DNA from: Jannaschia donghaensis
GTDB taxonomy: Bacteria > Pseudomonadota > Alphaproteobacteria > Rhodobacterales > Rhodobacteraceae
Assembly: GCF_001403795.1 (NCBI RefSeq)
Contig: NZ_CXSU01000011.1
Location: 69,300 to 133,299 of the forward strand
Direction: 5' to 3'
DNA length: 64,000 nucleotides
Positions 2,864-62,592 of this stretch are shown piece by piece. The position numbers were made by a program, and so were the translations under genes. The notes under the pieces were generated by a model that saw nothing but the letters and a program-made list of their open reading frames with translations, was not told where the DNA came from and made no database searches. How positions within the stretch are numbered: the stretch's first letter is position 1; the number at the start of each line of letters is the position of its first letter.

Positions 2864-4441
2864 ATGGCCCCCCGCCTGATCAAAGGCTTCCTCACCGTCG
2901 GCGGCTGGACCATGCTCAGTCGTGTTCTGGGCTTCGTGCGCGACATCCTGATCGCGCGGTTTCTGGGCACCGGCGTCGCGGCAGAGGCGTTTTTCGTCGC
3001 GTTTTCCCTGCCCAATATGTTCCGACGGTTCTTCGCCGAAGGCGCATTCAACATGGCCTTCGTCCCCCTTTACGCAAAGAAGCTGGAGGCGGAGGGCGCG
3101 GAAGCCGACGCCTTCGCCCGCGACGCGGTTGCTGGCATGGTGATGATCCTGACGCTCTTTTCGGTGGTCGGCATTGTGTTCATGCCCGCGCTGGTCCTGG
3201 CTATGGCGTCAGGGTTCGCCGACGACGCCCGCTTCTCCCTCGCGGTGTTTTACGGTCGGATCGCGTTTCCTTATATCCTGCTCATTTCGCTGGCCGCCCT
3301 GGTGTCGGGCGTGCTCAATTCGAACGGTCGTTTCCTTGCGGCCGCGGCGGCCCCGGCGCTGCTGAACATCGTCTTCGTCGCTGCCGTCGCCCTGGTGTGG
3401 TTCTTTCCCTGGCTGGTGCCCTACGCAACGCCAGTGCCCGAGTTGATCTTCGGCCGTGCGCTGATCTGGGCCGTCCCGGTGGGCGGTGCCGCGCAGCTTG
3501 CTCTGGTGTGGTGGGCCGCGGCCCGTGCGGGGCATCGCCTGCTGCCGCGCCGTCGACCACGCCTGACCAAGGATCTCAAACGCCTGCTCGTCATCGCGGC
3601 CCCTGCGGCGCTTGCCGGCGGCGTGGTGCAGGTGAACCTGCTGGTGGGGCGTCAGGTGGCCAGCTATTTCGACGGGGCGGTCGCCTGGCTGAACTACGCT
3701 GACCGCCTGTATCAGCTGCCCTTGGGCGTTGTGGGCATCGCCATCGGCGTCGTGTTGTTGCCCGACCTGTCGCGCCGCGTCCGCGCGGGCGACGAGGACG
3801 GCCAGCGCGACGCGTATTCCCGCGCGTTCGAGTTTTCCTGGCTTCTGACCATCCCGTCGGCGGTTGCCCTCTTGGTGGTGCCCCTGCCGCTGGTTTCGGT
3901 CCTGTTCGAAAGGGGGGCCTTCGACGCGGACGATACGGCGGCGACGGCCATCGCGCTGATGATCTATGCAGTGGGCCTGCCGGCCTTCGTGCTTCAGAAA
4001 GTGCTGCAACCGATCTATTTCGCGCGCGAAGACACGCGGAGCCCGCTGCGGTTTGCCGTCGTCTCTCTTGTCATCAACGCGGTCGTCGCGCTTGGGCTGT
4101 CGCCGGTGATCGGCTGGCCCGCCGCTGCCCTTGGAACCACGCTCGCGGCCTGGGGCATGGTCGTTCTTCTGGCGCGCGGGGTCCGCGGCTTGGGGGCCCT
4201 TGCCACATTGGACGACCGCGCGCGGACGCGGGCCTGGCGCATCGTCCTGGCGGCGGTGCTTATGGGGTTCGTGTTGTGGATCACGATGCTGATCCTGGGG
4301 CCGATGTTCGCCGGCACCTGGCGCGGGCTGGCGCTGGCGGTGCTGGTCGGGATGGGCATCCTGTCGTATTTCGGGTTCGCGCAACTGGTCGGGGCCGTGC
4401 GGCTGGCCGAGCTGAAGGCGGCCCTGCGGCGTCAGCGCTGA
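2864..4441 (+). CDS. murJ: Lipid II flippase MurJ (MviN)
   Basis: Inner-membrane MOP-superfamily flippase that moves lipid II to the periplasmic face for peptidoglycan synthesis. At 525 residues with about 14 hydrophobic segments it has the usual family length. The N-terminus KGFLTVGGWTMLSRVLGFVR and the segment FRRFFAEGAFNMAFVPLY are typical MurJ signatures. The ATG at 2864 begins at the conserved N-terminus. The 3' end overlaps the convergent rhomboid-like gene by 10 bases. A murJ-rhomboid-trpS neighbourhood is, as I recall, common in Rhodobacteraceae. Confidence 0.96.
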   Translation: MAPRLIKGFLTVGGWTMLSRVLGFVRDILIARFLGTGVAAEAFFVAFSLPNMFRRFFAEGAFNMAFVPLYAKKLEAEGAEADAFARDAVAGMVMILTLFSVVGIVFMPALVLAMASGFADDARFSLAVFYGRIAFPYILLISLAALVSGVLNSNGRFLAAAAAPALLNIVFVAAVALVWFFPWLVPYATPVPELIFGRALIWAVPVGGAAQLALVWWAAARAGHRLLPRRRPRLTKDLKRLLVIAAPAALAGGVVQVNLLVGRQVASYFDGAVAWLNYADRLYQLPLGVVGIAIGVVLLPDLSRRVRAGDEDGQRDAYSRAFEFSWLLTIPSAVALLVVPLPLVSVLFERGAFDADDTAATAIALMIYAVGLPAFVLQKVLQPIYFAREDTRSPLRFAVVSLVINAVVALGLSPVIGWPAAALGTTLAAWGMVVLLARGVRGLGALATLDDRARTRAWRIVLAAVLMGFVLWITMLILGPMFAGTWRGLALAVLVGMGILSYFGFAQLVGAVRLAELKAALRRQR

Positions 4442-5124
4442 CGCAAGCGCTGGCGCAGGTGCGCAAGTGCGCCAGGGAACAGCAGCACGGCCAGCGCGTA
4501 CCCCGTGGCCGCCCCGCCCAGATCGGCCGTCCAATCCGGCAGCCATCCGAACCCGCGCGTAGCGACCAGGCCGAAGACCGGTTGGATCGCCAGCAGAAAA
4601 CCGATCAGCAGGCATGCCTTTTTCGGGTCGGCGCGCGTCAGGCCCCGTTGCGTCAGATAGGTGAATGCCCCGATCAGGCCATAGGCCGCGGGATACCCCC
4701 CGAACAACGGCGAGGCCGCGTCGAACAGGATCAGATACATCAGCGCCCCGCCGGTCGCCGCGCCGAAAAAGATGAAAAGCACCCGCAGATTGGGATAGAC
4801 GGGCGAGACCGCGTTACCGAGCGCCAGGACGAAGACCGCGACGAAGGCCGCGTGAACCATGCTGCCGTGCAAGAACGGATAGGTCAAAACCCGTACCACC
4901 TGTCGCAGCGGGAAGCTGCGGTTTTCCCACATCCATGACCAGACGCTGTCGATCACGGCCCAGTCGCGCAGGGCCGTCAGACGCCAGCCCACCGCCTCCC
5001 GACCGCCGATGAAGCCGGCCGTACCAGCCTGGAACAGAAGCTCGATCGCGATGACGACGACGGCAAGGGCGACCACGACGGGGGGCAGCGTGTTGAAGGG
5101 GCTCTGGTTGCGGGGGTCCATCAT
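4432..5124 (-). CDS. Rhomboid-fold membrane protein, probably catalytically dead
   Basis: A 230-residue polytopic membrane protein with the rhomboid layout: the FLHGSMVH segment (85-91), a glycine-rich helix before it, and the block that normally reads GASGAIFG. Here that block reads GGYPAAYG (142-149), so the catalytic Ser is Tyr144. The block that normally reads HLGG reads DLGG (201-204), so the catalytic His is Asp201. Both dyad residues are therefore lost while the fold signatures remain, which points to a pseudoprotease. It is convergent with murJ and divergent from trpS. Fold assignment is good; a role in binding membrane clients is only inference. Confidence 0.8.
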   Translation of the reverse strand: MMDPRNQSPFNTLPPVVVALAVVVIAIELLFQAGTAGFIGGREAVGWRLTALRDWAVIDSVWSWMWENRSFPLRQVVRVLTYPFLHGSMVHAAFVAVFVLALGNAVSPVYPNLRVLFIFFGAATGGALMYLILFDAASPLFGGYPAAYGLIGAFTYLTQRGLTRADPKKACLLIGFLLAIQPVFGLVATRGFGWLPDWTADLGGAATGYALAVLLFPGALAHLRQRLRQR

Positions 5125-38493: not shown

Positions 38494-38811
38494 CTAGAGG
38501 GTATTGAGCAGCACCGGCAGACCTTGGGTCGCGATGCATTGGATTGTGTCGGGCCGCGCGGCAACATCAAGGACGATGCGCGTGGCGGTGTCGTTGGCGC
38601 CGGTTCCGGCGGCGCTGGCCAGTTGCAGGATTTCACCCGCGCTGGCGTTGTCGATGATGCAATCCGTGGCCGGGGTCAGCGGCACGCCCGGAAAACGGGC
38701 AGCGACGATGGGGTTCACCGTGCGCTTGGCCGCGTCGCGCGCAATCTCGTCGGCCAGCGGCGAATTGCAGGCCGCAACGGCCAGTGGGAACAGAAGGACT
38801 TCAAGCCGCAT
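38494..38811 (-). CDS. Small lipoprotein inside the sdh operon
   Basis: A 105-residue predicted lipoprotein: signal MRLEVLLFPLAVAAC with a lipobox at Cys15, then a short helical domain containing two further cysteines (TDCIID and IQCIAT). It overlaps the sulfotransferase gene by 11 bases and ends 9 bases before sdhB, so it must be co-expressed with succinate dehydrogenase. No family recognised. Confidence 0.7.
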   Translation of the reverse strand: MRLEVLLFPLAVAACNSPLADEIARDAAKRTVNPIVAARFPGVPLTPATDCIIDNASAGEILQLASAAGTGANDTATRIVLDVAARPDTIQCIATQGLPVLLNTL

Positions 38812-39595
38812 CGCGTATCTCCTGCGTCCAGTCGGTTGGATGGCTTTCATAGCCGAGCTGCACCAGCGCGTCGCCGTGCCGGACGGCATAGGTCGACGCG
38901 ACATCGTGCGGAAGGCTGCTGCGCCAGTCGCGGGTTGCGGTCCCGGTAATATGGGCCTTCACCCGGTCGCTGCGCGCGCCCGCATCGGCCAGACCCCCGA
39001 ACAGGGCGTTGTCCCAAAAGATCTGCCCCCCCAATGCCACCTCGGGTTCAGGCAGGCCAAGATTGCGCAGGTGGTCGCGGAACGCCCGCCCCTCGACGTC
39101 CGCCATCAGATCCTCGTAGCGGACTTCGATCGTGTTCGCGCGCGGCGTCCAGGCGGTCATCGCTTTCAGGGTCTCGGCGTGTTTTTCTTCCATCTCGAAC
39201 ATCAGACGGGTGGTGTCGTCGGGCAGCGCATTGAGGTGCTGCTGATACGTTAAACCGTCCAGATCGGCGCGGGCGGAATGCAGAAAATCTTCGCCGTCGG
39301 CGGGGGCGGTCAGATGATAGCGCATCCCGGACACGAGGACGTCGCGCGGGTCGCGGATCATATGAAGGATCCGCGCATCGGGCCGGTCCAGAATGTCCTG
39401 CGGAAAAGCAGAGGACCATTGGAATAGGAACACCCGGTCGGCGTCCGGCACGTGACGGGTTCCGGACGCCGGAAACACCGTACGATGCGCCACGCCCAGC
39501 CGGTCGGCCAATGCGCGAAACACAGCGCGCATCCACAGCGTGCCGGTTTTGTGATGCGTGCCAATGCACAGGACGCGGGGCGCGATCAGATCCAT
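38801..39595 (-). CDS. Sulfotransferase family protein
   Basis: Predicted PAPS-dependent sulfotransferase of 264 residues. The 5'-phosphosulfate loop is CIGTHHKTGTLWMR (about residues 10-23) and the 3'-phosphate element is MIRDPRDVLVSGMRYH (about 80-95), both well formed. The acceptor is unknown. It is embedded in the sdh operon between two small lipoprotein genes; its start and the upstream stop share one base (TGATG). Confidence 0.87.
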   Translation of the reverse strand: MDLIAPRVLCIGTHHKTGTLWMRAVFRALADRLGVAHRTVFPASGTRHVPDADRVFLFQWSSAFPQDILDRPDARILHMIRDPRDVLVSGMRYHLTAPADGEDFLHSARADLDGLTYQQHLNALPDDTTRLMFEMEEKHAETLKAMTAWTPRANTIEVRYEDLMADVEGRAFRDHLRNLGLPEPEVALGGQIFWDNALFGGLADAGARSDRVKAHITGTATRDWRSSLPHDVASTYAVRHGDALVQLGYESHPTDWTQEIRDAA

Positions 39596-39822
39596 CAGCG
39601 GCTGGCCCGATCGGCAGTGCACGACAGCAGCGCCTCGATCTCGGCGTCCGACATCGGCGCGTCCGGAACAACCGCGACGTCCGCGCGCCCGATCGTGGCC
39701 AAGCAGGAGGCGAGTCCGGGCTGCACCTGACTGTCGGCGACGGCGACGCTGCGCCCGGTGCCGCCGACCGCGTTGCATCCGGCCAAAACCAGCACCGCCA
39801 AAGGGAACGCCAATCGGATCAT
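39595..39822 (-). CDS. Small lipoprotein inside the sdh operon
   Basis: A 75-residue predicted lipoprotein (MIRLAFPLAVLVLAGC, lipid-modified Cys16). The mature part has two cysteines (LASCLAT and LLSCTAD) that could pair in the periplasm. The start overlaps the stop of the preceding lipoprotein gene, so translation is coupled on both sides. No family recognised. Confidence 0.68.
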   Translation of the reverse strand: MIRLAFPLAVLVLAGCNAVGGTGRSVAVADSQVQPGLASCLATIGRADVAVVPDAPMSDAEIEALLSCTADRASR

Positions 39823-40118
39823 CAGCGACGGCTCCCGGCTGAGATGCCGAAGGTCGTCGGCTCGGGGCGGCCTTCCATCTTTCGGGCGATACACGCGGCC
39901 AGGAATTCGGTCTCGGACTGCGGGTTGAAGACGCGGTTGGTGATGGTGATGTTCCCGGTCGAAACCGGCCCGTTGTTGGAGATACCCGCCCCGACAGACC
40001 CGGAAGTACCGTCGGCCTGACCGACGTTGGCGCGACATTCGCGCGCCGCGCGTTCAGGCGTCATCGGCACCGGCGCGCAAGCGGCGAGCAGTGGTAACAG
40101 GATCAGGGCGCGGATCAT
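39822..40118 (-). CDS. Small lipoprotein inside the sdh operon
   Basis: A 98-residue predicted lipoprotein (MIRALILLPLLAACAPVP, lipobox Cys14). The mature part has Cys in ARECRAN and in LAACIARK, separated by a glycine/serine/asparagine-rich segment. It starts within the stop of the next upstream ORF (ATGA). No family recognised. Confidence 0.7.
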   Translation of the reverse strand: MIRALILLPLLAACAPVPMTPERAARECRANVGQADGTSGSVGAGISNNGPVSTGNITITNRVFNPQSETEFLAACIARKMEGRPEPTTFGISAGSRR

Positions 40119-40387
40119 CGCGGCACCGCCTGACAGGCGTCCAGCCGCCGCAGATCTGCGGCGCTGCCGGTGCGGATCGTGCCATCCTCGACCGTCAGGC
40201 CCTGATCACGCGCGCAATCGAGATAGGCTTCGCGCCGCGCGTCGGGTCCAGTCGGCATGCAGGCCGATATCAGCAAAAGCGCGGCCCCCGCGCTGAGCGG
40301 CGGCACGACCATCCCGAAGAAACGACAGGGCGTCTCTCCGGGCAAGATCGGGCCGGGCTCCGACAAAGGGGGGCCGTCAGCGAGCAT
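40115..40387 (-). CDS. Small lipoprotein or membrane protein following sdhA
   Basis: A 90-residue ORF whose ATG directly follows the sdhA stop (TGAATG). It contains a hydrophobic stretch ending in a lipobox-like LLISAC, then a short domain with two cysteines (LDCARDQG and LDACQAV). An internal ATG at 40312 would give a shorter signal peptide that begins just before the hydrophobic part and looks more like a lipoprotein; the start is therefore uncertain. Confidence 0.6.
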   Translation of the reverse strand: MLADGPPLSEPGPILPGETPCRFFGMVVPPLSAGAALLLISACMPTGPDARREAYLDCARDQGLTVEDGTIRTGSAADLRRLDACQAVPR

Positions 40388-48601: not shown

Positions 48602-48623
48602 GGGCGCGCGGTAGCGCGCGCCC
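48602..48623. terminator. GC hairpin between convergent mdh and the PP-loop gene
   Basis: GGGCGCGCG and CGCGCGCCC form a nine-base-pair stem with a four-base loop (48602-48610 with 48615-48623). There is no T-run on either strand, so it may be a weak or bidirectional terminator. Confidence 0.5.
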
Positions 48624-50158
48624 TAGCCCGTTGCGCGGCCAAGCTTTTCGAACAGGCCCGAGCCGTGCACCGCCTTCGAGAGTGTCCGGTCGCGGTACGG
48701 CACACCCTGCAGCATCGGAAGCCGCCACCGCTCCATCTGCCGCTGTGGCCGGTTTCCGCGGCGGACAGGATAGGTCATGCACATGATCATGCGCAGAAGT
48801 TCGCGATCATTGGCCCCATAGACGATCGTACGGTTCGCGTATCCGGCGGAAATCATGCTCTGCGTTGTCGGCATCCAGATCTCGCAATGCCCAAGATCCG
48901 CCGCCCGGGTCTTGGCCGCTTCAGGCAGACCATCCAGCCATGCGCCATATCGTGGCTCTGACCGTGCCTTGAAATCGTCCGGTTGCAGTGTGGGCATGCT
49001 GAGCGCGCGCAGGCCCAGTTCGGGTGTCACCTGCGTCCCCCAGGCCACCCGCCACTTGTTCGCGCGCATCAATTCGATCAGCCCGCCGCGCAGGATCAGA
49101 TCGCCCGGCGGTGCCATCTGGTGCGCCCGGATCGACCGTGCGTCCGGCGCATATTGGAAACTGGAGCGCAGGTCGATCATCCGCGCGATCCGCTCAACGT
49201 CTGCGTCGCCGATCGCCTCCGCCGTTGGCCCGGCGCAGGAGATGGTCAGCAGGGGATGCTGCAACCGCTCCGCAATCGTCTCGGCCAACAGGGCATCGAC
49301 GAAGGTCGCCTCGTTGCGGACCCAGCAATAGAGCGATGCCAGATCCGACAGGCGATGATGACAACAGCCCAGAAGGAATCGGCTGTCCTGACCGCCCGTG
49401 ATCGGAAGGGCGCATCGGTTCGATCCGATCAACACCTCCAAAACCTGTGTCAGGCGATCGCAGATCGCATCGACCTGATCGGAATGGGACGCAGGTTGCG
49501 TGAAATCCGTATCGTCGCGGGGCCAGTGTCGGACCTGGCGATATTGCGAAAGGTCGAGATAATGGTTTGCCATCATCCGCTGCACGGTCGCGTCGACGGT
49601 GTCGCCGAAAAAATAGTATCGCCCCCGCTCCGCCCGGAAGAGAGACAGAGGCAGGTCCGGCGAGTCAGCCAGCGGGCGGTCAATCGCAAGCGGAACCGAC
49701 GCGGCGATCCGACCGGTCGTCGGATCGAAGAAAGGTGTCAAACTGCACGATGGATCGACGTATAGCCGATTGTCGGTCAGCACGATGTAGCGGCCAGCGA
49801 CATTCTCTATCCAGCGCTCCAATGCGTCTGGGGTGCAGGGCACTCTTGTGCCGTCGGCCACCATGCCGGCGCCTGCAATCAATGCGATACCAAGGACAAG
49901 ACCGACAACTTCGCCGGCGTCGTCCACCAGCCGCATCAAGGGCAGCTCGGGACAATGCCAAAGAGTCCGCGCCCCCAGCGTGGCGTGGCGCCAGTTGGAC
50001 GGCACGGCGACCGGCCGGGTATCTATCACGAACTGACGCAGGAATGTCTCGCCATAGGGCAGATCTTCATCGCTGCAGATCCGCGCGCCCAGCGGCACGG
50101 CTGCAATCTCTCCGCGGGCAACCCGCGAAGGTATTTCACGCGGTTGTGAGTGGTTCAT
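48623..50158 (-). CDS. Asparagine-synthase-like PP-loop protein of unknown function
   Basis: A 511-residue protein. The second half begins with LPITGGQDSRFLL (252-264), a variant of the SGGxDS pyrophosphate loop of asparagine synthetase-like enzymes that adenylate a substrate. The first half looks like a degenerate class II glutaminase fold (GRYIVLTDNRLYVDPS) but lacks the N-terminal Cys nucleophile, so it cannot use glutamine. It may activate and amidate a carboxyl group with another amine donor. The start is uncertain: GTG at 50236 would add 26 residues. It is divergent from sucC and visibly less GC-rich. Confidence 0.7.
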   Translation of the reverse strand: MNHSQPREIPSRVARGEIAAVPLGARICSDEDLPYGETFLRQFVIDTRPVAVPSNWRHATLGARTLWHCPELPLMRLVDDAGEVVGLVLGIALIAGAGMVADGTRVPCTPDALERWIENVAGRYIVLTDNRLYVDPSCSLTPFFDPTTGRIAASVPLAIDRPLADSPDLPLSLFRAERGRYYFFGDTVDATVQRMMANHYLDLSQYRQVRHWPRDDTDFTQPASHSDQVDAICDRLTQVLEVLIGSNRCALPITGGQDSRFLLGCCHHRLSDLASLYCWVRNEATFVDALLAETIAERLQHPLLTISCAGPTAEAIGDADVERIARMIDLRSSFQYAPDARSIRAHQMAPPGDLILRGGLIELMRANKWRVAWGTQVTPELGLRALSMPTLQPDDFKARSEPRYGAWLDGLPEAAKTRAADLGHCEIWMPTTQSMISAGYANRTIVYGANDRELLRMIMCMTYPVRRGNRPQRQMERWRLPMLQGVPYRDRTLSKAVHGSGLFEKLGRATG

Positions 50159-50246
50159 CGATCTGCCCAGCGCTTTTTGTTTTCCGCAAGCTAACAGTCT
50201 GGCCGACACCGATCCACACATGATATCTTCGGCCACGCTTCCTCTT

Positions 50247-50386: not shown

Positions 50387-51580
50387 ATGAACATCCACGA
50401 ATACCAGGCCAAGGCCTTGCTGCGCGATTTCGGCGCACCCGTTTCCGACGGGGTGGCCGTTACCAAGGCGGCAGACGCCAAGACCGCCGCCAGTCAGCTG
50501 GACGGGCCACTCTGGGTCGTGAAGGCGCAGATCCATGCAGGCGGGCGCGGCAAGGGTAAGTTCAAGGAAGCCGAGGCCGGTGACGCCGGTGGCGTCCGCC
50601 TTGCCAAATCGGTTCAGGAAGCGGCCGATCACGCATCGCAGATGCTGGGCAACACGCTGGTCACGCATCAGACCGGCCCCGCCGGCAAGCAGGTCAACCG
50701 CATCTACATCGAAGACGGCTCGGGCATCGAGACGGAGCTGTATCTCGCCCTTCTGGTCGACCGGTCGACCAGCCGCATCGGCTTCGTCTGCTCGACCGAA
50801 GGCGGCATGGACATCGAGGAGGTGGCCGCCAGCACCCCCGAGAAGATCATCAGCTTCTCCGTCGATCCCGCCACCGGCTATCAGCCCTTCCACGGCCGCC
50901 GCGTCGCGTTCTCGCTGGGGCTGAAAGGGGGGCAGGTCAAGCAGTGCGTCAAACTGATGGGGCAACTCTACAAGGCCTTCGAGGAGAAGGACATGGAGAT
51001 GCTGGAGATCAACCCGCTGATCGTGACCGACGGCGGCGATCTCAAGGTGTTGGACGCCAAGGTCAGCTTCGATGGCAACGCGCTCTACCGCCAGAAAGAC
51101 ATCGCCGAGTTGCGCGACGAGACGGAGGAGGACCCCAAGGAACTCGCCGCCTCCAAGTTCGACCTGAACTATATCGCGCTGGACGGTGAAATCGGCTGCA
51201 TGGTCAACGGCGCGGGTCTGGCCATGGCAACGATGGACATCATCAAACTCTATGGGGCCGAACCGGCAAACTTCCTCGACGTCGGCGGCGGCGCCACCGA
51301 GGAAAAGGTGACCGAGGCGTTCAAGATAATCACGTCTGACCCGCAGGTCAAAGGCATCCTGGTCAACATCTTCGGCGGCATCATGCGCTGCGACGTCATC
51401 GCCGAGGGCGTGGTGGCGGCCGTCAAGCAGGTCGGGCTCAAGGTGCCGCTGGTCGTGCGGCTGGAAGGCACGAACGTGGAACAGGGCAAGAAGATCATCA
51501 ATGAGTCGGGCCTCGACGTGATCGCCGCCGATGACCTGAAGGACGGCGCACAGAAGATCGTGAAGGCGGTCAAGGGGTAA
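50387..51580 (+). CDS. sucC: Succinyl-CoA ligase beta subunit
   Basis: ATP-grasp subunit of succinyl-CoA synthetase, 397 residues starting [18 protein letters not shown], the standard N-terminus. [13 protein letters not shown] and [13 protein letters not shown] are nucleotide and metal-binding blocks. Its stop overlaps the next start as TAATG. The partner sucD lies 1.8 kb downstream with three small genes in between, whereas in most bacteria sucC and sucD are adjacent. Confidence 0.97.
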
Positions 51581-52191
51581 TGGGTCCGCTCCGGGGAATG
51601 CCTTGCGCGTTGCTCGCGATCGTCGGTCTTGCCGGTTGTGAACCGACAGGTGGCATGACGCGCGAGAACGTTTCTCCAAGTGTCGGCGTAGCAATTTTTG
51701 AGGACCTCTGCCTTCAAGACATCTCGAATGCCGCTAGCAATCGTTCACAGATCCATGATCTTATCGCCCAGGATCCGCGCGGCTATGCCCTCAGAAGATC
51801 CGGACAGATAACGGCCTATGCGGCCGACGATCTGGATATGGATGTTCAGTTCATTTGCGGGCCGCGACAAAACGCACGCACCCCGGTGGTGAGTGAATGC
51901 GCCGTCGGGTTCGACACGCAGAACAGCCCCGCCGTGGCAAGCGTGCTGGAAAATAGCCCGCTCTTCGACAAGTCATTGAACTTGGAGGTCACGAGCGAGG
52001 GGAATAATACCTATCTCAGCGGGTTAACGACATACGCCGGTCAGCCAATCCGCGTTACGGTCACGCCTCCCGGCAGAGCTGTTCTCGATCGTGTGAACGA
52101 GTCACTTGCGGCAACCAACGATTTCCGTTTCACGACGATATCGGTTCTCCACGGTCGGCAGACCTGTCCCTCGGTCGGGAGCGGCCAATGA
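51580..52191 (+). CDS. Small lipoprotein between sucC and sucD (first of three)
   Basis: A 203-residue predicted lipoprotein (lipobox LAGC near residue 20). The mature part has Cys in EDLCLQD and SECAVGF, positions that resemble the two cysteines of the next two genes, and two extra cysteines (FICGP and QTCPS). It is AT-richer than its neighbours. The start is coupled to the sucC stop (TAATG). No known family recognised. Confidence 0.7.
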
Positions 52192-52709
52192 GACTGACAT
52201 CTGGCGTATATTCCTGCGCGGTGCTGGCGATAAGTCTCGGTCACGCTCACGCAAATCCAGCGCGCAACGAAATGTTGGGAGCCTTCGCCGGCCACTGCTT
52301 CTCGCCCTACCTCACGCCTGCCCGCGTTAAGTCCGAGATCGCCAGCACCGGCGCGCGGGTCGATTTCTACGACCTCAACCCATTTTCCGACGTCGCCCCA
52401 ACGCCCGGCACGGCCATCACCCCCGGTACCGACCGGCGATGCGAAGTGACGTTCGATGGACGCCATGGCGACGCCGCCGCCGAAGTCGCGACAAGCGCTC
52501 TGCAAGCCGAAGGTATCACCGCCGGCACCCCCGTACCCGCGACCCACGCGAACGCGGCCCTGCCCGGCACGACCCTGCTGGCCGCACGCGCGCTCAATCC
52601 GACCCGCATCGCCGTCGTCCACACCGGCACCCGTCCCGGCCCGAACGGGGTCGAGACCTTTCTGTCGGTCGAGCGGCTGACCCCGCAAGCAAGCGAGGCT
52701 AGCCGATGA
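52188..52709 (+). CDS. Exported protein between sucC and sucD (second of three)
   Basis: A 173-residue protein with a signal peptide ending near HAHA and no lipobox. Cysteines occur in AGHCFSPYL and RRCEVTF, spaced as in the neighbours, after which an Ala-rich helix and a strand pair (TRIAVVHTG) follow. It overlaps the genes on both sides by 4 bases. Probably a divergent paralog of the genes before and after it. Confidence 0.7.
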   Translation: MRLTSGVYSCAVLAISLGHAHANPARNEMLGAFAGHCFSPYLTPARVKSEIASTGARVDFYDLNPFSDVAPTPGTAITPGTDRRCEVTFDGRHGDAAAEVATSALQAEGITAGTPVPATHANAALPGTTLLAARALNPTRIAVVHTGTRPGPNGVETFLSVERLTPQASEASR

Positions 52710-53287
52710 TCCGCCCTTTGGTCCTTCTTCTCGCCCTCGCGGGCTGCGTGCAGACCGGCACCAACGGATTCGGCAGTGGCGTCGGCGACATCGCCGCGCA
52801 GCGGATGCGCTTCGCCGCCGAGGCCGTCTGCCTCAACAACCGCACCCGCGGCACGCAGGACCGCGCCGCCCGCGCGCTGAACTTCCCGGTGCGTGAGCGT
52901 GATGGCAATTCCATCGTCTATGCCAACCCCGGCACGCTGACCTTCATTCGCATCGGCCCCGCCCCCGATCAGACCTTCACCGACGATCAGGGCCAGCGGC
53001 GCAGCATCGCGGGCAGCGGGTGTTCCGTCGGCTCGCCTGCGGTGGGGACCGACCGCGCGAACCGTCTGGCAGGCGAAATCCTGGCCCCGCGGTTGATCGA
53101 CGGCAGCGATACTTTGCTGGCACCCTTGGGGGCGGGCACCAATGTCGACGGCGGCGTCGGCTTCTTCTTCGACAACCTCGCCGTGACGTTGCCGGTCGCG
53201 CGCACCACTTTCACGAATCCAGAAACCGGGCAGGGCACCGCCTTCGACCATCCCGTCATTCTCATCGTTCACGCCCAGGCCCGTTAG
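52706..53287 (+). CDS. Small lipoprotein between sucC and sucD (third of three)
   Basis: A 193-residue predicted lipoprotein (MIRPLVLLLALAGCVQTG, lipobox Cys14). The mature domain has Cys in EAVCLNN and GSGCSVGS, matching the spacing of its neighbours, then a beta-rich end. It ends 57 bases before sucD. Function unknown. Confidence 0.72.
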   Translation: MIRPLVLLLALAGCVQTGTNGFGSGVGDIAAQRMRFAAEAVCLNNRTRGTQDRAARALNFPVRERDGNSIVYANPGTLTFIRIGPAPDQTFTDDQGQRRSIAGSGCSVGSPAVGTDRANRLAGEILAPRLIDGSDTLLAPLGAGTNVDGGVGFFFDNLAVTLPVARTTFTNPETGQGTAFDHPVILIVHAQAR

Positions 53288-53344: not shown

Positions 53345-54226
53345 ATGGCCATTCTCATCGACAAACACACCAAGGTCATCTGCCAGGGGCTCACCGGCTC
53401 CCAGGGGACGTTCCATACCGAACAGGCGATTGCCTACGGCACGCAGATGGTCGGGGGCGTCACGCCCGGCAAGGGTGGTCAGACGCACCTGGATCTTCCC
53501 GTCTTCGACAGCTGTCACGAAGCGGTGCATGCCACCGGGGCCAACGCCTCCGTCATCTACGTGCCGCCGCCCTTCGCCGCCGATTCCATCCTGGAGGCCA
53601 TCGACGCCGAGATCGAGCTGGTCATCTGCATCACCGAAGGCATCCCGGTCCTCGACATGATGAAGGTCAAGCGCGCGCTCGACGGGTCCAAGACGCGGCT
53701 CATCGGTCCGAACTGCCCGGGTGTCATCACGCCGGACGCCTGCAAGATCGGCATCATGCCCGGTCACATCCACAAGCGCGGGTCGGTCGGCGTCGTATCC
53801 CGCTCGGGTACCCTGACCTACGAGGCGGTCAAGCAGACGACCGACATGGGGCTGGGCCAGTCCACGGCCGTCGGCATCGGCGGCGACCCGATCAAGGGCA
53901 CTGAACACATCGACGTGTTGGAGATGTTCCTGGCCGATCCGGAAACGCATTCGATCATCATGATCGGCGAAATCGGCGGCACGGCGGAAGAAGAAGCCGC
54001 GCAATTCCTCGCGGACGAGAAGAAGGCCGGACGTTGGAAACCCACCGCCGGCTTCATCGCCGGGCGCACCGCCCCTCCGGGCCGCCGCATGGGCCACGCG
54101 GGCGCCATCGTCGCGGGCGGCAAGGGCGACGCGGAGAGCAAGATCGAAGCGATGAAGGAAGCCGGCATCGTCGTCGCCGACAGCCCCGCCACGCTGGGCG
54201 AGGCTGTGAAGGAAGCGATCGGATGA
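53345..54226 (+). CDS. sucD: Succinyl-CoA ligase alpha subunit
   Basis: CoA-binding subunit of succinyl-CoA synthetase, 293 residues. The CoA-binding [14 protein letters not shown] is near the N-terminus, SRSGTLTYE and [10 protein letters not shown] follow, and the active-site phosphohistidine is in GHAGAIV near the C-terminus. One base separates its stop from the next gene. Confidence 0.97.
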
Positions 54227-54227
54227 G

Positions 54228-54959
54228 ATGGCATCGGGACGCTCCTCTCTCGGGTGTCTCAGAACCCTGGCGATTACCATCGCCGGGGTTTGCCTGTCTG
54301 CGGCAGCGTCTGGTCAGACAGATGAGCATCGCCCCACGGAGGCGGAGCAGGCTTTGATGACAGCCACGATCGATCTCTGTTTCGCCCTGCCCAATACGAT
54401 CCCTCTGGCGGTCGAGGCCTTCGAAAATTTGGGCTGGCGGACCATCGAAGAGGATGAGGAAAGCGAAACGCCGCCCCCCATTTTTCAAACTTTGATGGCG
54501 GGCGTCATCGTCCATAACTTCCGCGCCGACGATCTGAACTATACCGTCGGCAATGGCGCGTTCATGGCCGCCTCAATCCTGGGAAACTCGTCGCTGGGCA
54601 AGAACCAGATCGGGATGGCCTACGGTGACGCTTCCCTCGCCGTTTTGGGGATCGAGGAAGCCAGACCCAATTGCACGATGGCTGGACCGGCGTGGATCAG
54701 TCGTGCCACCCACGCAGCAGGCTTGCGGGCCCAGATCACTCAATCGACTGCGGACCTTTGGCAGGGCATGAGAATTGATGATCGCGGCGGCCATAAAATC
54801 GGGATTTTTGAGGACTTTGAAGCGTTTCAAGAGGATGTCAGGAAAGCTATCGTATCGAACGACGACGATCCGGAAGAAGTCGACCTGTATGTAGGTATGC
54901 TCAAACCCGTCTCCATCACGGTAACACCCCAAGCCAGTCTGAAGGCACGGGATCGATGA
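54228..54959 (+). CDS. Exported two-cysteine protein between sucD and sucA (first of four)
   Basis: A 243-residue protein with a signal peptide ending in SAAASGQ. The mature part begins with a Cys helix (ATIDLCFALP) leading to ENLGWRTI, and has its second Cys in ARPNCTMAG. The pattern Cys, 15-20 residues, then xxxGW, then a second Cys about 90 residues on is repeated in the next three genes. It is AT-richer than sucD and sucA. It overlaps the next gene by 4 bases. Confidence 0.72.
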   Translation: MASGRSSLGCLRTLAITIAGVCLSAAASGQTDEHRPTEAEQALMTATIDLCFALPNTIPLAVEAFENLGWRTIEEDEESETPPPIFQTLMAGVIVHNFRADDLNYTVGNGAFMAASILGNSSLGKNQIGMAYGDASLAVLGIEEARPNCTMAGPAWISRATHAAGLRAQITQSTADLWQGMRIDDRGGHKIGIFEDFEAFQEDVRKAIVSNDDDPEEVDLYVGMLKPVSITVTPQASLKARDR

Positions 54960-55573
54960 TGCTTTGTCACCCATTCTCCACGACGGTTCACGCAGCCTTG
55001 GCGGCAGCTTTGATGAGTTCCGTTTGGCCAAGCCTTGCGCATAGCCAAGAGGCACCCACCGCCTGTCTGACCCCCGCTGCCGATACCGACACTACCCTGG
55101 CCGCGCTCGCCACCCAAGGCTGGACCGCCCTTCCCGACAGCACCCTGCCGCAGGACGTCGCGGACCGGCTCGTCTGGCTCTATGTCGCGCATTATACGAC
55201 AGGCGACACCGGCGGCGAGGCGCTGGCGTCGATCGTCGATCTGCAAAGCCGTACCATCAAGGGTCTGGCCCGCAAGCGTGACATTCCCACCAGCAAGACC
55301 CGGTTCTTGACGCGGCACGAAGGCGCGATGATCCTGTTCTGGCGCGCGCCTGTGCCGGGCCGGTTCGAATTGCAATGCCGGATTGCGCTGGACGGCCCCG
55401 ACACGCCCGGATCGGATCCCTTCGCCCGTCACGCAATGGAACAGGTCGATCACGGACAGATCCTGACGGTCGCACTGGACCGGGCCGCGCTGGCACGGGC
55501 GACAGGGCGCGACGTCAAAACGGCGCAGCTTGTCGACACGTATCTCATCTATGGAGCGGAGGACGCGCGATGA
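54956..55573 (+). CDS. Exported two-cysteine protein between sucD and sucA (second of four)
   Basis: A 205-residue protein with a signal peptide ending near LAHSQE. The mature part shows TACLTPA leading to ATQGWTAL, then the second Cys in FELQCRIAL and a strand ALARATGRD with DTYLIYG. It fits the same scheme as its neighbours. The start is coupled to the previous stop and its end to the next gene (ATGA). Confidence 0.72.
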   Translation: MMLCHPFSTTVHAALAAALMSSVWPSLAHSQEAPTACLTPAADTDTTLAALATQGWTALPDSTLPQDVADRLVWLYVAHYTTGDTGGEALASIVDLQSRTIKGLARKRDIPTSKTRFLTRHEGAMILFWRAPVPGRFELQCRIALDGPDTPGSDPFARHAMEQVDHGQILTVALDRAALARATGRDVKTAQLVDTYLIYGAEDAR

Positions 55574-56178
55574 TCCGTTTGGTCGCCCTTCTTGTGTGCT
55601 TAACCGGGCCTGTCGCGGCCCAAGGCTACGGCCTGCCCCCCGCGCTGGCCCCCTGCGGGGAGGGGCATCTCGATGCGGCCCGCTACCGCACGGACCTGCA
55701 GGACCTTGGCTGGGTCTTCGTTCCGGCGAATGCGCGGGCTGGGCAGCTGGAATTGCTCAACGACGCGTTCGTCTCCCTCGTCTCCGGGCGGGACGGACCG
55801 CGCGATGCCAGACTTGAACGGGGCCGTGCCGTCTGGGCCGACCTGGGGGTCAGCCAACTGGTCTTTACGACACCGGACGGAGGTCAGGCCCTGATGGTCG
55901 CGGGTGGTGCGAACGCGGACGGTGTCGCGCAATTGCGGTGCTGGATGGCCTTTGCGGATGGCACGCGAATGGACGACCTTTTCGTGCAACTTCTGACACA
56001 GGCCACCGATCCCCCGGCCCCGGGCGATGAACAGGTTCTGGTCCTGACGCAGAACACCCCGGGGTCGGACGAGACGCTGCGGCTCTACCTGACGCGGCCC
56101 GCCCCCGGCATCGACACGCCGGCCACGCGGGCGGGGATCGCCACGCTGCTGTCGGTCACGCCGGAGGCGGCGCAATGA
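55570..56178 (+). CDS. Exported two-cysteine protein between sucD and sucA (third of four)
   Basis: A 202-residue protein with signal peptide MIRLVALLVCLTGPVAA. The mature part has APCGEG leading to QDLGWVFV, the second Cys in QLRCWMAF, and the late strand LRLYLTRPAPG. The start at 55570 is fixed by the ATGA overlap with the previous gene. Confidence 0.73.
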   Translation: MIRLVALLVCLTGPVAAQGYGLPPALAPCGEGHLDAARYRTDLQDLGWVFVPANARAGQLELLNDAFVSLVSGRDGPRDARLERGRAVWADLGVSQLVFTTPDGGQALMVAGGANADGVAQLRCWMAFADGTRMDDLFVQLLTQATDPPAPGDEQVLVLTQNTPGSDETLRLYLTRPAPGIDTPATRAGIATLLSVTPEAAQ

Positions 56179-56834
56179 TCCGCACGGCCCTTTTTTCGGT
56201 GATGGCGACGCAGGCGGGGGCGGTCGACCTGCCCGCCATGGGACCCGAAATTACGGCCTGCCTGGAACAGCATGTCGCCGTCGCGCCCTATGTCGCCGCG
56301 CTCGCCTCGGCGGGCTGGAGCCCGGTGCGGCCCCTCGACCGCCCAGCGGCCCAACGCGACCTGTCGCACGCGATGCTGGCCGCGTTGCAACTGGACGATG
56401 ATCACGGTGACCATGACCACGATGAGATCCAGGGTAAGACGGGAACAATCGGCTGGGCCGAACGCTGGGACCACCGCGACGACACGCTGGTCTGGATCGA
56501 GGACGCCAGCGCGAACCGAACCTTGTACGAGCGCGGCGATGCCGTCCTGCTGCTGATGGGCGAACAGATCACCGATGAAACCGCCGGCCGCATCCATCGG
56601 ACCACCTGTCTGTTCGGGGCACCCGAACTGGACGACGTCGCGCGGCTTCTGGCGGAGGAGGCGACGGTCGACGACCTGCGCAGCCTGGCCTTCTTGCCCG
56701 AAGACGACGGGGCCTTGCCCTATACCTCCGTCGTGCTGACGCGGAACGTCCCGCCACCGGGCGCGGAGGCACCGACACATCTGGACGCGATCATCACGAC
56801 GCAGGTGTTTCCCGTGCCGAAGGTGCTGAGATGA
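56175..56834 (+). CDS. Exported two-cysteine protein between sucD and sucA (fourth of four)
   Basis: A 219-residue protein with signal peptide-like MIRTALFSVMATQAGA. ITACLEQ leads to ASAGWSPV; the second Cys is in RTTCLFGA; the late strand is YTSVVLTRNVPPPG, close to the LTRPAPG of the previous gene. A His/Asp-rich stretch (DDDHGDHDHDE) could bind metal. It ends 109 bases before sucA. Confidence 0.73.
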   Translation: MIRTALFSVMATQAGAVDLPAMGPEITACLEQHVAVAPYVAALASAGWSPVRPLDRPAAQRDLSHAMLAALQLDDDHGDHDHDEIQGKTGTIGWAERWDHRDDTLVWIEDASANRTLYERGDAVLLLMGEQITDETAGRIHRTTCLFGAPELDDVARLLAEEATVDDLRSLAFLPEDDGALPYTSVVLTRNVPPPGAEAPTHLDAIITTQVFPVPKVLR

Positions 56835-56943: not shown

Positions 56944-59913
56944 ATGACCGATCAATCCGACAACGACATCTTTCATTCCACCAGCTTCATGCAGGGGCAC
57001 AACGCCGAATATCTCGAACAGATGTACGCGCGGTATGCCGACGATCCCGGTGCCGTGGATGAGACGTGGAAGCAATTCTTCGCAGCCCTCGACGACGATG
57101 CGGGCACCGCGCAGGCGGAAGCCGCTGGTCCCAGCTGGGCGCGCACCGACTGGCCGCCCGTTCCGGCAGACGACCTGACGGCGGCGCTGACGGGCGAATG
57201 GCCCGCAGCCCCCGTCGACCCCAAAGAGGCCAAGGCGGCCGGTGACAAGATCAGGACGAAGGCGGCCGAGATCGGGTCCGCCCCGGATGATGACGCGATC
57301 AAACGCGCCGTCCTCGACAGTATCCGGGCGCTGATGTTGATCCGCGCCTATCGCATCCGGGGCCACCTGGCGGCGGATCTGGACCCGCTGGGGATGCGCG
57401 CCGAGACGCCCCATCCTGAGCTGGATCCGAAGTCCTACGGGTTCTCGGACGCCGACATGGATCGTCCGATCTTCATCGACAACGTCCTGGGACTGGAGAT
57501 CGCGACGCTCAAGCAGATCGTCTCGATTCTGAAGCGGACGTATTGCGGCACCTTCGCGCTGCAGTACATGCACATTTCCAACCCCGAGGAATCGGCCTGG
57601 CTCAAGGAGCGGATCGAGGGTCTTGGAAAGGAGATCGAGTTCACGCAGAACGGCCGCCGCGCCATTCTCAACAAGTTGGTCGAGGCGGAAGGGTTCGAGA
57701 AATACCTGCACGTCAAGTACATGGGCACCAAGCGCTTCGGTCTGGACGGTGGCGAAGCGCTGATCCCCGCGATGGAACAGATCATCAAGCGCGGCGGTCA
57801 GCTGGGCCTGTCGGACGTCGTCATCGGCATGCCCCACCGCGGCCGGCTGAGTGTCTTGGCCAACGTGATGCAAAAACCCTACAAGGCGATCTTCAACGAG
57901 TTTCAGGGCGGTAGTTTCAAGCCCGAGGATGTCGATGGCTCGGGCGACGTGAAATACCACCTCGGGGCCAGTTCCGACCGCGACTTCGACGGCAACACCG
58001 TCCACCTGTCGCTGACCGCGAACCCCTCCCACCTGGAGGCGGTGAACCCCGTGGTGCTGGGCAAGGTCCGCGCCAAGCAGGATCAGCTGGGCGACACCGA
58101 ACGGCGCAAGGTGGCCGGCGTCCTGCTGCACGGGGATGCTGCCTTCGCCGGCCAGGGCGTGGTGGCCGAATGTTTCGCCCTGTCGGGCGTGCGCGGGCAC
58201 CGGACGGGCGGCACGATCCATATCGTCGTCAACAACCAGATCGGGTTCACGACCGCGCCGCATTTTTCACGCTCCAGCCCCTATCCGACCGACAACGCGC
58301 TGGTGGTCGAAGCGCCGATCTTCCACGTCAACGGCGACGACCCCGAAGCCGTCGTTCACGCGGCCCGGGTCGCGACGGAGTTCCGGCAGAAGTTCGGCAA
58401 GGACGTCGTTCTGGACATCTTCTGCTATCGCCGGTTCGGCCATAACGAGGGCGACGAGCCCATGTTCACGAACCCGGTCATGTATAAGAAGATCAAGGGT
58501 CAGAAGACGACCCTGACCCTCTATACCGAACGCCTGGTGCGCGATGGCCTGATCCCAGAGGGCGAGATCGAGGACATGAAGACCGCCTTCCAGGACCGCA
58601 TGGCGCAGGAATTCGAGGCTGGCAAAGACTACAAACCCAACAAGGCCGACTGGCTGGACGGGCGCTGGTCGCATTTGGATCGCCGCAAGGAAGAAGACTA
58701 CGTCCGTGGGGAGACGGCCATCGCGCCCGAAACCTACGACGCGGTCGGACGCGCCCTGACGACGGCCCCCAAGGACTTTCCACTGCACAAGACCATCGGC
58801 CGCCTGATGGACGCCAAGGCACAGATGTTCGAGAGCGGCACCGGCTTCGACTGGGCCACCGCCGAGGCGATGGCTTTCGGATCCCTGTTGACCGAAGGCT
58901 ACAAGGTGCGTCTGGCCGGACAGGACAGCACGCGGGGAACATTCTCCCAGCGGCATTCGGCCCTGATCAATCAAGAGAACGAGGACCGCTACTACCCCCT
59001 CAACCATATCCGCGAGGGACAGTCGCATTACGAAGCGATCGACAGCGCATTGTCCGAATACGCGGTGCTAGGTTTCGAATACGGCTATTCGCTGGCCGAA
59101 CCCAACGCCTTGACCATGTGGGAAGCGCAGTTCGGCGATTTCGCCAACGGCGCGCAGATCATGTTCGACCAGTTCATCTCCTCCGGGGAGGCCAAATGGC
59201 TGCGGATGAGCGGATTGGTTTGCCTGCTGCCGCACGGGTACGAAGGTCAGGGACCGGAACATTCATCGGCGCGGCTGGAGCGGTTTCTGCAGATGTGCGG
59301 CTCCGACAATTGGATCGTCGCAAATTGCACCACGCCCGCCAACTACTTCCACATCCTGCGCCGACAGCTGCACCGCGACTTCCGCAAGCCGCTGATCCTG
59401 ATGACGCCCAAGTCGCTGCTTCGTCACAAGATGGCGGTGTCGACCAAAGAGGAATTCACCACCGGGTCCAGTTTCCACCGCGTTCTGTGGGACGATGCAC
59501 AACACGGCAATTCCGACACAAAGCTGGTGGACGACGCATCGATCAAGCGCGTGGTCGTGTGTTCGGGCAAGGTCTACTACGATCTGCTGGAGGAGCGGGA
59601 CGAACGCGGCCTGACGGATGTCTATATCCTGCGGCTGGAGCAGTTTTATCCGTTCCCCGCCCTGTCGATGGTCAACGAACTGCAACGTTTCAAGCAGGCC
59701 GAAATCGTCTGGTGTCAGGAAGAGCCCAAGAACCAGGGGGCCTGGACCTTCGTGGAGCCGAACATCGAATGGGTGCTGACCCGCATCGGTGCCGCCCATA
59801 CGCGGCCGGTCTATGCCGGTCGTGCCGCCTCCGCCTCGCCCGCGACGGGTCTGGCCAGCCAACACAAAGCCCAACAAGCCGCGCTCGTCGATGACGCGCT
59901 GCGCACGGAGTAA
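56944..59913 (+). CDS. sucA: 2-oxoglutarate dehydrogenase E1 component
   Basis: Thiamine-diphosphate enzyme that decarboxylates 2-oxoglutarate and loads lipoyl-E2, 989 residues from the ATG at 56944. The N-terminal E2-binding tail with [15 protein letters not shown], the [13 protein letters not shown] block, [10 protein letters not shown] and the GHNEGDEP thiamine-binding motif are present. An ATG at 56896 would add 16 unconserved residues. Confidence 0.97.
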
Positions 59914-62400: not shown

Positions 62401-62592
62401 ATGGACCCGAGCCCCGTGACCCCAACCCGCCGCGCCATCGCCTTCTGGATCATCCGCGTCGCCATCGCCGTCATCCTCGTCCTCGTCCTTCAGGCCTGGC
62501 GCGGACCTGATCCGGTCCTGTGGTATCTCGCCGCCGCCTATGCGGCGATCTCGGCCTTCACCACCTACCTCCTCATCAGGCGCATGAAATGA
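62401..62592 (+). CDS. Small two-span membrane protein
   Basis: A 63-residue protein with two membrane segments (IAFWIIRVAIAVILVLVL and LWYLAAAYAAISAFTTYLLI) and a positively charged tail RRMK. It overlaps the MAPEG gene (ATGA). No family recognised; it may be an accessory subunit of that protein. Confidence 0.65.
   Translation: MDPSPVTPTRRAIAFWIIRVAIAVILVLVLQAWRGPDPVLWYLAAAYAAISAFTTYLLIRRMK

Follow-up and report, generated by a model that had tools for sequence, protein, structure and literature searches.

The window analysed in this study is a stretch of 64,000 nucleotides of the Jannaschia donghaensis genome (contig C11:69300-133299; genome size 3.48 Mb), and our subject is a block of four genes, P0001 to P0004 in order, that occupies the junction between sucD and sucA, hereafter called the slot. 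As proposed in an earlier, sequence-only reading, these are tandem genes with 4-base overlaps: according to the open reading frame (ORF) coordinates, they run co-directionally over 54228-56834, are linked by three exact 4-base overlaps, and occupy most of the 2717 bp gap between sucD and sucA, with P0001 starting 1 base beyond the end of sucD (54226). A GGAGG sequence, presumably a Shine-Dalgarno sequence, closely precedes the starts of both P0003 and P0004 and lies inside the preceding gene, which suggests translational coupling. Patterns resembling promoters or terminators were no more frequent than in shuffles. The names sucC, sucA, mdh, sdhA, sdhB and atpH/G were assigned by neighbourhood and not by a family search; a family-search basis exists for atpA, and for sucC and sucD (Ligase_CoA). 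Comparisons below were made with 19 other Jannaschia genomes (the congeners) and with further genomes, and codes beginning with G and L denote genomes and loci, respectively.

The four proteins share a short signature. The sequence-only reading had noted a Cys followed 15-20 residues later by GW, and the spacing turned out to be tighter, being exactly C-x17-GW in 4/4, with a second Cys, which had also been noted and which aligns across all four proteins. Of the window's six-frame ORFs with 150 or more amino acids, 151 in total, five contain C-x17-GW, namely P0001 to P0004 and a distant ORF at 62520; the occurrence of the motif in all four block proteins exceeds chance. A late LTRxxPG strand, reported for two of the proteins, is present in P0003 (LTRPAPG) and only approximate in P0004 (LTRNVPPPG). 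The signal peptides that had been described are reflected in signal-peptide-like starts in 4/4, scored with a crude and lenient rule that also accepts membrane proteins; it was positive for 54/73 Jannaschia sense ORFs (80-300 amino acids) in the sucC-sucD and sucD-sucA gaps, compared to 12/123 antisense gap ORFs and 14/35 other coding sequences in the window. The proposed periplasmic location is likely. P0002, P0003 and P0004 combine a predicted signal peptide, C-x17-GW, the second Cys and a profile score above controls, the features by which we delimit a superfamily that we have named C17GW.

To what extent the four are paralogues, as had been suggested, differs between them. Single-linkage clustering of the gap ORFs of the window and the 19 congeners (a set of 485 ORFs) placed P0002, P0003 and P0004, which represent families A, B and C, in one group, with weak links between the subfamilies (E about 2e-5 to 8e-4). 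When profiles of the mature parts, without signal peptides, were compared, A matched B+C with P 6.4e-5, B matched C with P 4.7e-6, A matched C with P 1.5e-4, and A matched B alone with P 2.8e-3, whereas the reversed controls of these profile pairs gave P 0.2-0.8. This profile comparison firmly supports P0002 to P0004 as paralogues. An origin as four equal tandem duplicates was rejected, as B and C are mutually nearest, A is farther and P0001 farthest. The His/Asp-rich loop of P0004, DDDHGDHDHDE, is kept in L033 and mostly gone in L028, and possibly binds metal.

P0001 stands further apart. Its match to the family A profile was marginal (P 4.8e-3) and in register. Against a combined A+B+C profile it scored 8.2 bits, which none of 2000 shuffles reached (best shuffle 6.5), and with the A profile alone its 6.7 bits were reached by 3/2000 shuffles. 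P0006 of the sucC-sucD set scores higher on the A+B+C profile (9.8 bits), and such scores alone do not set P0001 apart. In the 19 congeners, matches to P0001 were confined to E 0.02-0.08 over 44-56 residues, and a search of genome contigs yielded no close relatives. In a motif scan of 2414 ORFs, G013, from another genus, yielded a clear relative located between sucD and sucA, which matched P0001 with 39.5 bits over about 124 residues and has retained both Cys and GW. The selection of ORFs by the difference in GC content between third and second codon positions (GC3-GC2) is crude and misses some genes, including, before the motif scan, the L088 relative of P0001. A two-row profile of P0001 and the G013 protein (A11) matched two further genomes of 394, G642 (4e-25) and G143 (3e-8), again between sucD and sucA, so that relatives of P0001 occur in three other genera, all at this junction. 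Because of the exact motif spacing and these relatives in the slot, we accept P0001 as a probable divergent fourth member of the superfamily, and the claimed paralogy of all four is retained for P0001 in this weaker sense. The GC3 of P0001 and P0005 (0.66 and 0.64) is low compared to that of mdh, sucC, sucD and sucA (0.83-0.87), which suggests a recent arrival.

Table 1. Features at the sucD-sucA slot and in the neighbouring sucC-sucD gap (window coordinates)
Feature	Coordinates	Strand	Basis or distribution
sucD, left border of the slot	53345-54226	+	Ligase_CoA match; present in 19/19 congeners
P0001, exported protein of 243 amino acids, putative divergent superfamily member (subfamily D)	54228-54959	+	relatives in G013, G642 and G143
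P0002, exported protein of 205 amino acids, core family A, predicted alpha4-beta6 domain	54956-55573	+	in the slot of 14/19 congeners
P0003, exported protein of 202 amino acids, family B	55570-56178	+	matches in 2/19 congeners: G150 (64% identity), G162 (35%)
P0004, exported protein of 219 amino acids, family C, His/Asp-rich loop	56175-56834	+	orthologues in L028 and L033 (2/19 congener suc regions)
sucA, right border of the slot	56944-59913	+	tblastn placement of the window gene in congeners
C-x17-GW of P0001	54378-54437	+	motif scan
C-x17-GW of P0002	55064-55123	+	motif scan
C-x17-GW of P0003	55654-55713	+	motif scan
C-x17-GW of P0004	56259-56318	+	motif scan
Shine-Dalgarno-like GGAGG inside the terminal part of P0002, with P0002/P0003 start-stop overlap (ATGA)	55558-55573	+	upstream sequences
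Matching GGAGG/ATGA layout leading into P0004	56163-56178	+	upstream sequences
Three exported proteins between sucC and sucD	51580-52191, 52188-52709, 52706-53287	+	possible distant relatives

The superfamily is closely bound to the slot. Counting the window, a full family A gene is found in the suc region of 15/20 Jannaschia genomes and missing from 5/20, with a remnant of 72 amino acids in L034, and families B and C each occur in 3/20 and P0001 in 1/20. Eleven Jannaschia genomes searched whole with the A profile gave one match each, always in the slot. Over 390 genomes of the order, this profile gave 25 matches at E <=1e-3, of which 3 were judged false and 22 kept; 21 of the kept genomes carry the gene between sucD and sucA, and one (G424) has it as a stand-alone gene elsewhere. 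Rejected were matches in G210, G420 and G555, all of one genus, which spanned 41-52 residues of frames of ~1100 amino acids with no suc genes nearby. When only genomes that had contributed no row to the profile are counted, 7/8 family A matches lie in the slot, and with profiles A11 and A12 (E <=1e-3) such genomes gave 12 hits in 11 genomes, 10 of them (9 genomes) between sucD and sucA and 2 (G141 and G270) elsewhere. A superfamily profile matched 28/394 genomes of the family at E <=0.01, about 8 of them apparently noise; these absences are soft, as the genome search scores few candidates per genome. Of the matches with E 1e-3 to 0.01, the one in G116 lies in the slot and the one in G215 in the sucC-sucD gap, and the other eight, away from suc genes, were treated as noise. 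In the window's own genome the superfamily matches were the four window genes alone (8/35 candidates scored). Tandem organization is seen in another genus as well, since G262 (L243) has a tandem pair in the slot with a matching 4-base overlap. The expectation that the block recurs in the suc operons of related genera holds for the superfamily, with members in suc operons of several genera, but not for the set of four, which did not recur at any other suc locus examined. The stand-alone family A gene of G424 (L158, 7531-8142, minus strand) lies, judged by eye, next to a molybdenum oxidoreductase-like gene set, and its product is 66-67% identical to the A proteins of L033, L039 and L045.

The slot itself is variable in size and content. 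In the window and the 19 congeners, sucD-sucA measures 438-2717 bp, sucC-sucD 594-4041 bp, mdh-sucC 187-2825 bp and sdhA-sdhB 550-2784 bp, and in the same genomes sucA-sucB measures 1-7 bp, atpA-atpG 9-23 bp and atpH-atpA -1 to 1 bp. Across 43 loci from other genera, the gap between sucD and sucA spans 40-1665 bp; 40 of these loci were hand-picked from 78 genomes with sucD, with G052 and G058 chosen for carrying family A, and the remaining 3 were added because they carry it. None of the 67 loci measured has a longer gap than the window. A second, divergent sucCD copy in G165 (L047; about 70% identity), with a 4-bp sucC-sucD gap and no insert, was excluded from the counts. A profile for DUF805 (PF05656) found this family in 18/63 loci, and the match to Pfam was checked for one of the proteins. 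When mapped onto a tree built from SucC+SucD+SucA of 67 loci, family A requires at least 12 changes, a count that is inflated as some loci were selected for carrying A, and B and C require 2 and 1; DUF805 requires at least 16 changes over 63 loci. L159-L162 were unscanned for DUF805, P6 and P7, and are taken as absent in the 67-locus count and omitted from the 63-locus count. A vertically stable block was rejected on the family A changes. L033, L039 and L045, whose hosts are not nearest relatives, have A proteins with 82-86% identity to one another, and the window and L028, which are nearest to L033, carry a different A subtype. A recent horizontal exchange between these three was rejected, since the synonymous divergence (dS) of their A genes (0.76-0.81) is like that of core genes (0.56-1.04); the A genes diverged with their hosts, and the odd subtype is that of the window and L028. 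L028 has no P0001 orthologue, and comparison with its orthologues of P0002 to P0004 gave ratios of nonsynonymous to synonymous divergence (dN/dS) of 0.20-0.26, indicating purifying selection, with a range of 0.12-0.26 across comparisons. Copies of the superfamily come and go from species to species and yet remain loyal to the slot. In mdh-sucC, the window has an opposite-strand ORF of 537 amino acids (48623-50236, minus strand) with no Pfam match, and the congeners have different large ORFs there.

A confident structural model was obtained for P0002. The AlphaFold model, based on an alignment of 20 sequences, reached a predicted local distance difference test (pLDDT) score of 93.3 and a predicted template modelling (pTM) score of 0.89, and shows four helices and six strands, with a helix ahead of the last strand and a short helix behind it. 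Foldseek gave no PDB match at E <=0.001, BFVD (viral folds) gave none at this threshold either, and the best Z by VIA was 4.8; rows such as acetyltransferases (Z 4.8), YbjN/AmyR (Z 3.7) and DUF4309 (Z 3.1) are below the informative level of the tool. P0002 is predicted to form an alpha4-beta6 domain without a convincing PDB match, and we do not claim a new fold, nor do we claim or exclude a fold family.

The neighbouring gaps hold similar-looking proteins. The sequence-only reading had counted eleven small exported proteins in tricarboxylic acid (TCA) cycle operons, and by eye the same number is reached, with four lipoprotein-like proteins in sdhA-sdhB, three in sucC-sucD and four in sucD-sucA. 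The sucC-sucD proteins (families c5, P6 and P7) are, like those of the block, exported, encoded in the same operon and similar in N-terminal Cys-helix layout; however, they are weak against the family A profile (c5 P 0.024, P7 P 0.46, and P6 P 0.021, the last out of register and with a reversed control of 0.041). A distant relationship to the superfamily may be considered possible. A bridge could be provided by G215, which has a weak member in the sucC-sucD gap (18.4 bits with the family A profile, E 0.0016; 9.7 bits with c5, E 1.2; E 0.002 with the superfamily profile) and, between sucD and sucA, a protein with C-x18-GW. In this locus (L242), a C-x17-GW protein is encoded at 2963-3505 in the sucC-sucD gap and the C-x18-GW protein at 4468-5106, the latter gene followed, by eye, by a DUF805-like ORF, possibly bridging the two slots. 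Within the sdhA-sdhB gap of the window (38494-40387, minus strand), four lipoprotein-like ORFs, with putative lipoboxes, accompany a sulfotransferase (PF13469, PF00685), and a similar sulfotransferase start at sdhA-sdhB is visible in at least 13/20 Jannaschia gene lists.

What lies at the sucD-sucA junction is a set of selected, tandem, coupled-looking genes of one superfamily. The reading we prefer, and rate somewhat above an even chance, is that they form a tandem array of secreted proteins with an accessory role in the envelope, in amounts that track TCA expression. The superfamily, whose members are small and probably secreted, resides mainly at the sucD-sucA junction of Rhodobacteraceae, and since start-stop overlaps join its genes to the suc genes, the products would probably be made in step with the TCA enzymes by co-transcription. 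They would be exported by Sec, as the predicted signal peptides suggest, would fold in the periplasm as alpha4-beta6 domains, as predicted for P0002, with one conserved Cys pair that may form a disulfide, and would act in the envelope as accessory proteins in TCA-dependent dose, presumably not as parts of cytoplasmic enzymes. At the slot, copies duplicate, diverge, get lost and get replaced. The family facts are well supported, and the envelope function is a commitment that we make rather than a demonstration.

Several observations weigh against this reading. Among the block proteins, only P0002 has a well-predicted fold; the P0001 model is poor (pLDDT 64.1, with the first five ten-residue blocks at 72-94, the surroundings of the second Cys at 80-89, and a poor remainder), and its input alignment presupposed homology. 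In G424, G141 and G270 a member is found at a site without suc genes nearby, so the gene can persist outside the operon. Unrelated cargo occurs at this junction too, including glycosyltransferases, a hydrolase, a sulfotransferase and DUF805 proteins. Finally, in a study of Roseobacter TCA operons from 2012 (PMC3305630), two genes of Ruegeria pomeroyi between sucCD and sucAB, SPO_PG005 and SPO_0345, are described as transcribed independently of both.

Passengers are favoured by the turnover, the mixed cargo and the copies found elsewhere, and the strongest competing explanation, which we regard as possible and clearly less probable, is that TCA junctions are permissive, highly expressed landing sites whose genes benefit from the strong expression and have no functional tie to the TCA cycle or respiration. 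It is one of two options proposed in PMC3305630, and agrees with the diversity of the cargo, including DUF805, sulfotransferases and glycosyltransferases, with the frequent presence/absence changes of family A and DUF805, and with the low GC3 of P0001 and P0005. However, an expression site alone leaves unexplained why one superfamily prefers this slot, as in 10/12 independent hits, as well as the purifying selection. The loyalty to the slot favours a use tied to TCA expression, and we lean towards such a use over passengers, considering it about twice as likely.

The sequence-only reading had suggested that the proteins might sense or help to assemble respiratory complexes from the periplasm, which would be just one form of TCA-expression-linked use. 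Likely export, the operon neighbours and the conserved Cys pair fit this idea, which we nevertheless consider improbable: full family A genes are missing from a quarter of the Jannaschia suc regions (5/20), and in another search the family A profile matched 6/295 genomes of the family, yet sucD was found in 78/80. The limited reach of the superfamily profile, soft as its absences are, the species-to-species turnover of copies and the rare copies outside the operon speak against a core respiratory role, and no Pfam or NCBIfam family matched over its cut-off. Least probable of all are envelope conflict proteins, such as immunity or inhibitor proteins, which would fit secretion, tandem copies and the replacement of subfamilies at one slot, as with the A subtype shared by L033, L039 and L045 and differing in the hosts nearest to L033; searches with the seven window proteins gave nothing in PADLOC up to E 1 or in PHROGs under E 0.01, the plasmid set contained no match for P0001 or P0002, and the gene-averaged dN/dS is low and not diversifying.

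Returning to the array of envelope accessory proteins, a bolder version, which we consider unlikely, would be an undescribed periplasmic alpha4-beta6 superfamily with a fold outside solved structures, hard-wired into the succinyl-CoA/2-oxoglutarate step of the Rhodobacteraceae TCA operon as a tunable, often hetero-oligomeric envelope module that reports TCA flux to the envelope, with the sucC-sucD exported proteins as further members.

Known families offer little to compare with. None of the seven window proteins exceeded a curated cut-off in Pfam or NCBIfam (0/7), and significant matches were also lacking for 20 rows of family A searched in Pfam (best E 0.013) and for 27 rows of the superfamily searched in NCBIfam (best E 0.03). 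A weak match to type_III_ssaH (E 0.035) is far under the cut-off, and a PDB sequence search gave no match (best E 0.55). The NMCC_0638 family (lipo)protein profile (NF047650) matched 2/13 sucC-sucD proteins weakly and not significantly (best E 0.025), and none of the 27 scanned sucD-sucA superfamily rows. DUF805 is, like the superfamily, a frequent occupant of the sucD-sucA gap, but in profile comparison it resembles neither P0001 nor any of families A, B and C (P 0.29-0.53).

The nearest known case is that of the Roseobacter TCA operons, for which PMC3305630 describes novel genes, variable and poorly conserved, at three places: within sucCD, within sdhCDAB, and between sucCD and sucAB. In R. 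pomeroyi, SPO_PG006 and SPO_PG016, inserts in sucCD and sdhCDAB, are co-transcribed with the enzymes, and insert products were found by mass spectrometry. The literature surveyed (titles and beginnings of abstracts) gave no function for such inserts, and two options were kept in PMC3305630, that they serve the TCA cycle or that they exploit its expression. This question becomes testable on one removable block with relatives in other genera, thanks to slot-bound secreted paralogues, purifying selection, one confident fold model and a signature motif. In both cases extra genes lie between sucD and sucA, with content that differs between species, here among the window and its 19 congeners. The genes of PMC3305630 are described as poorly conserved and mostly without an ascribed function, whereas here a superfamily recurs, marked by a common motif, paralogues in tandem and loyalty to the slot. 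As a phenomenon, variable inserts in suc and sdh operons are not new, having been reported in 2012, and what is new here is that the sucD-sucA inserts include a slot-bound superfamily of secreted paralogues.

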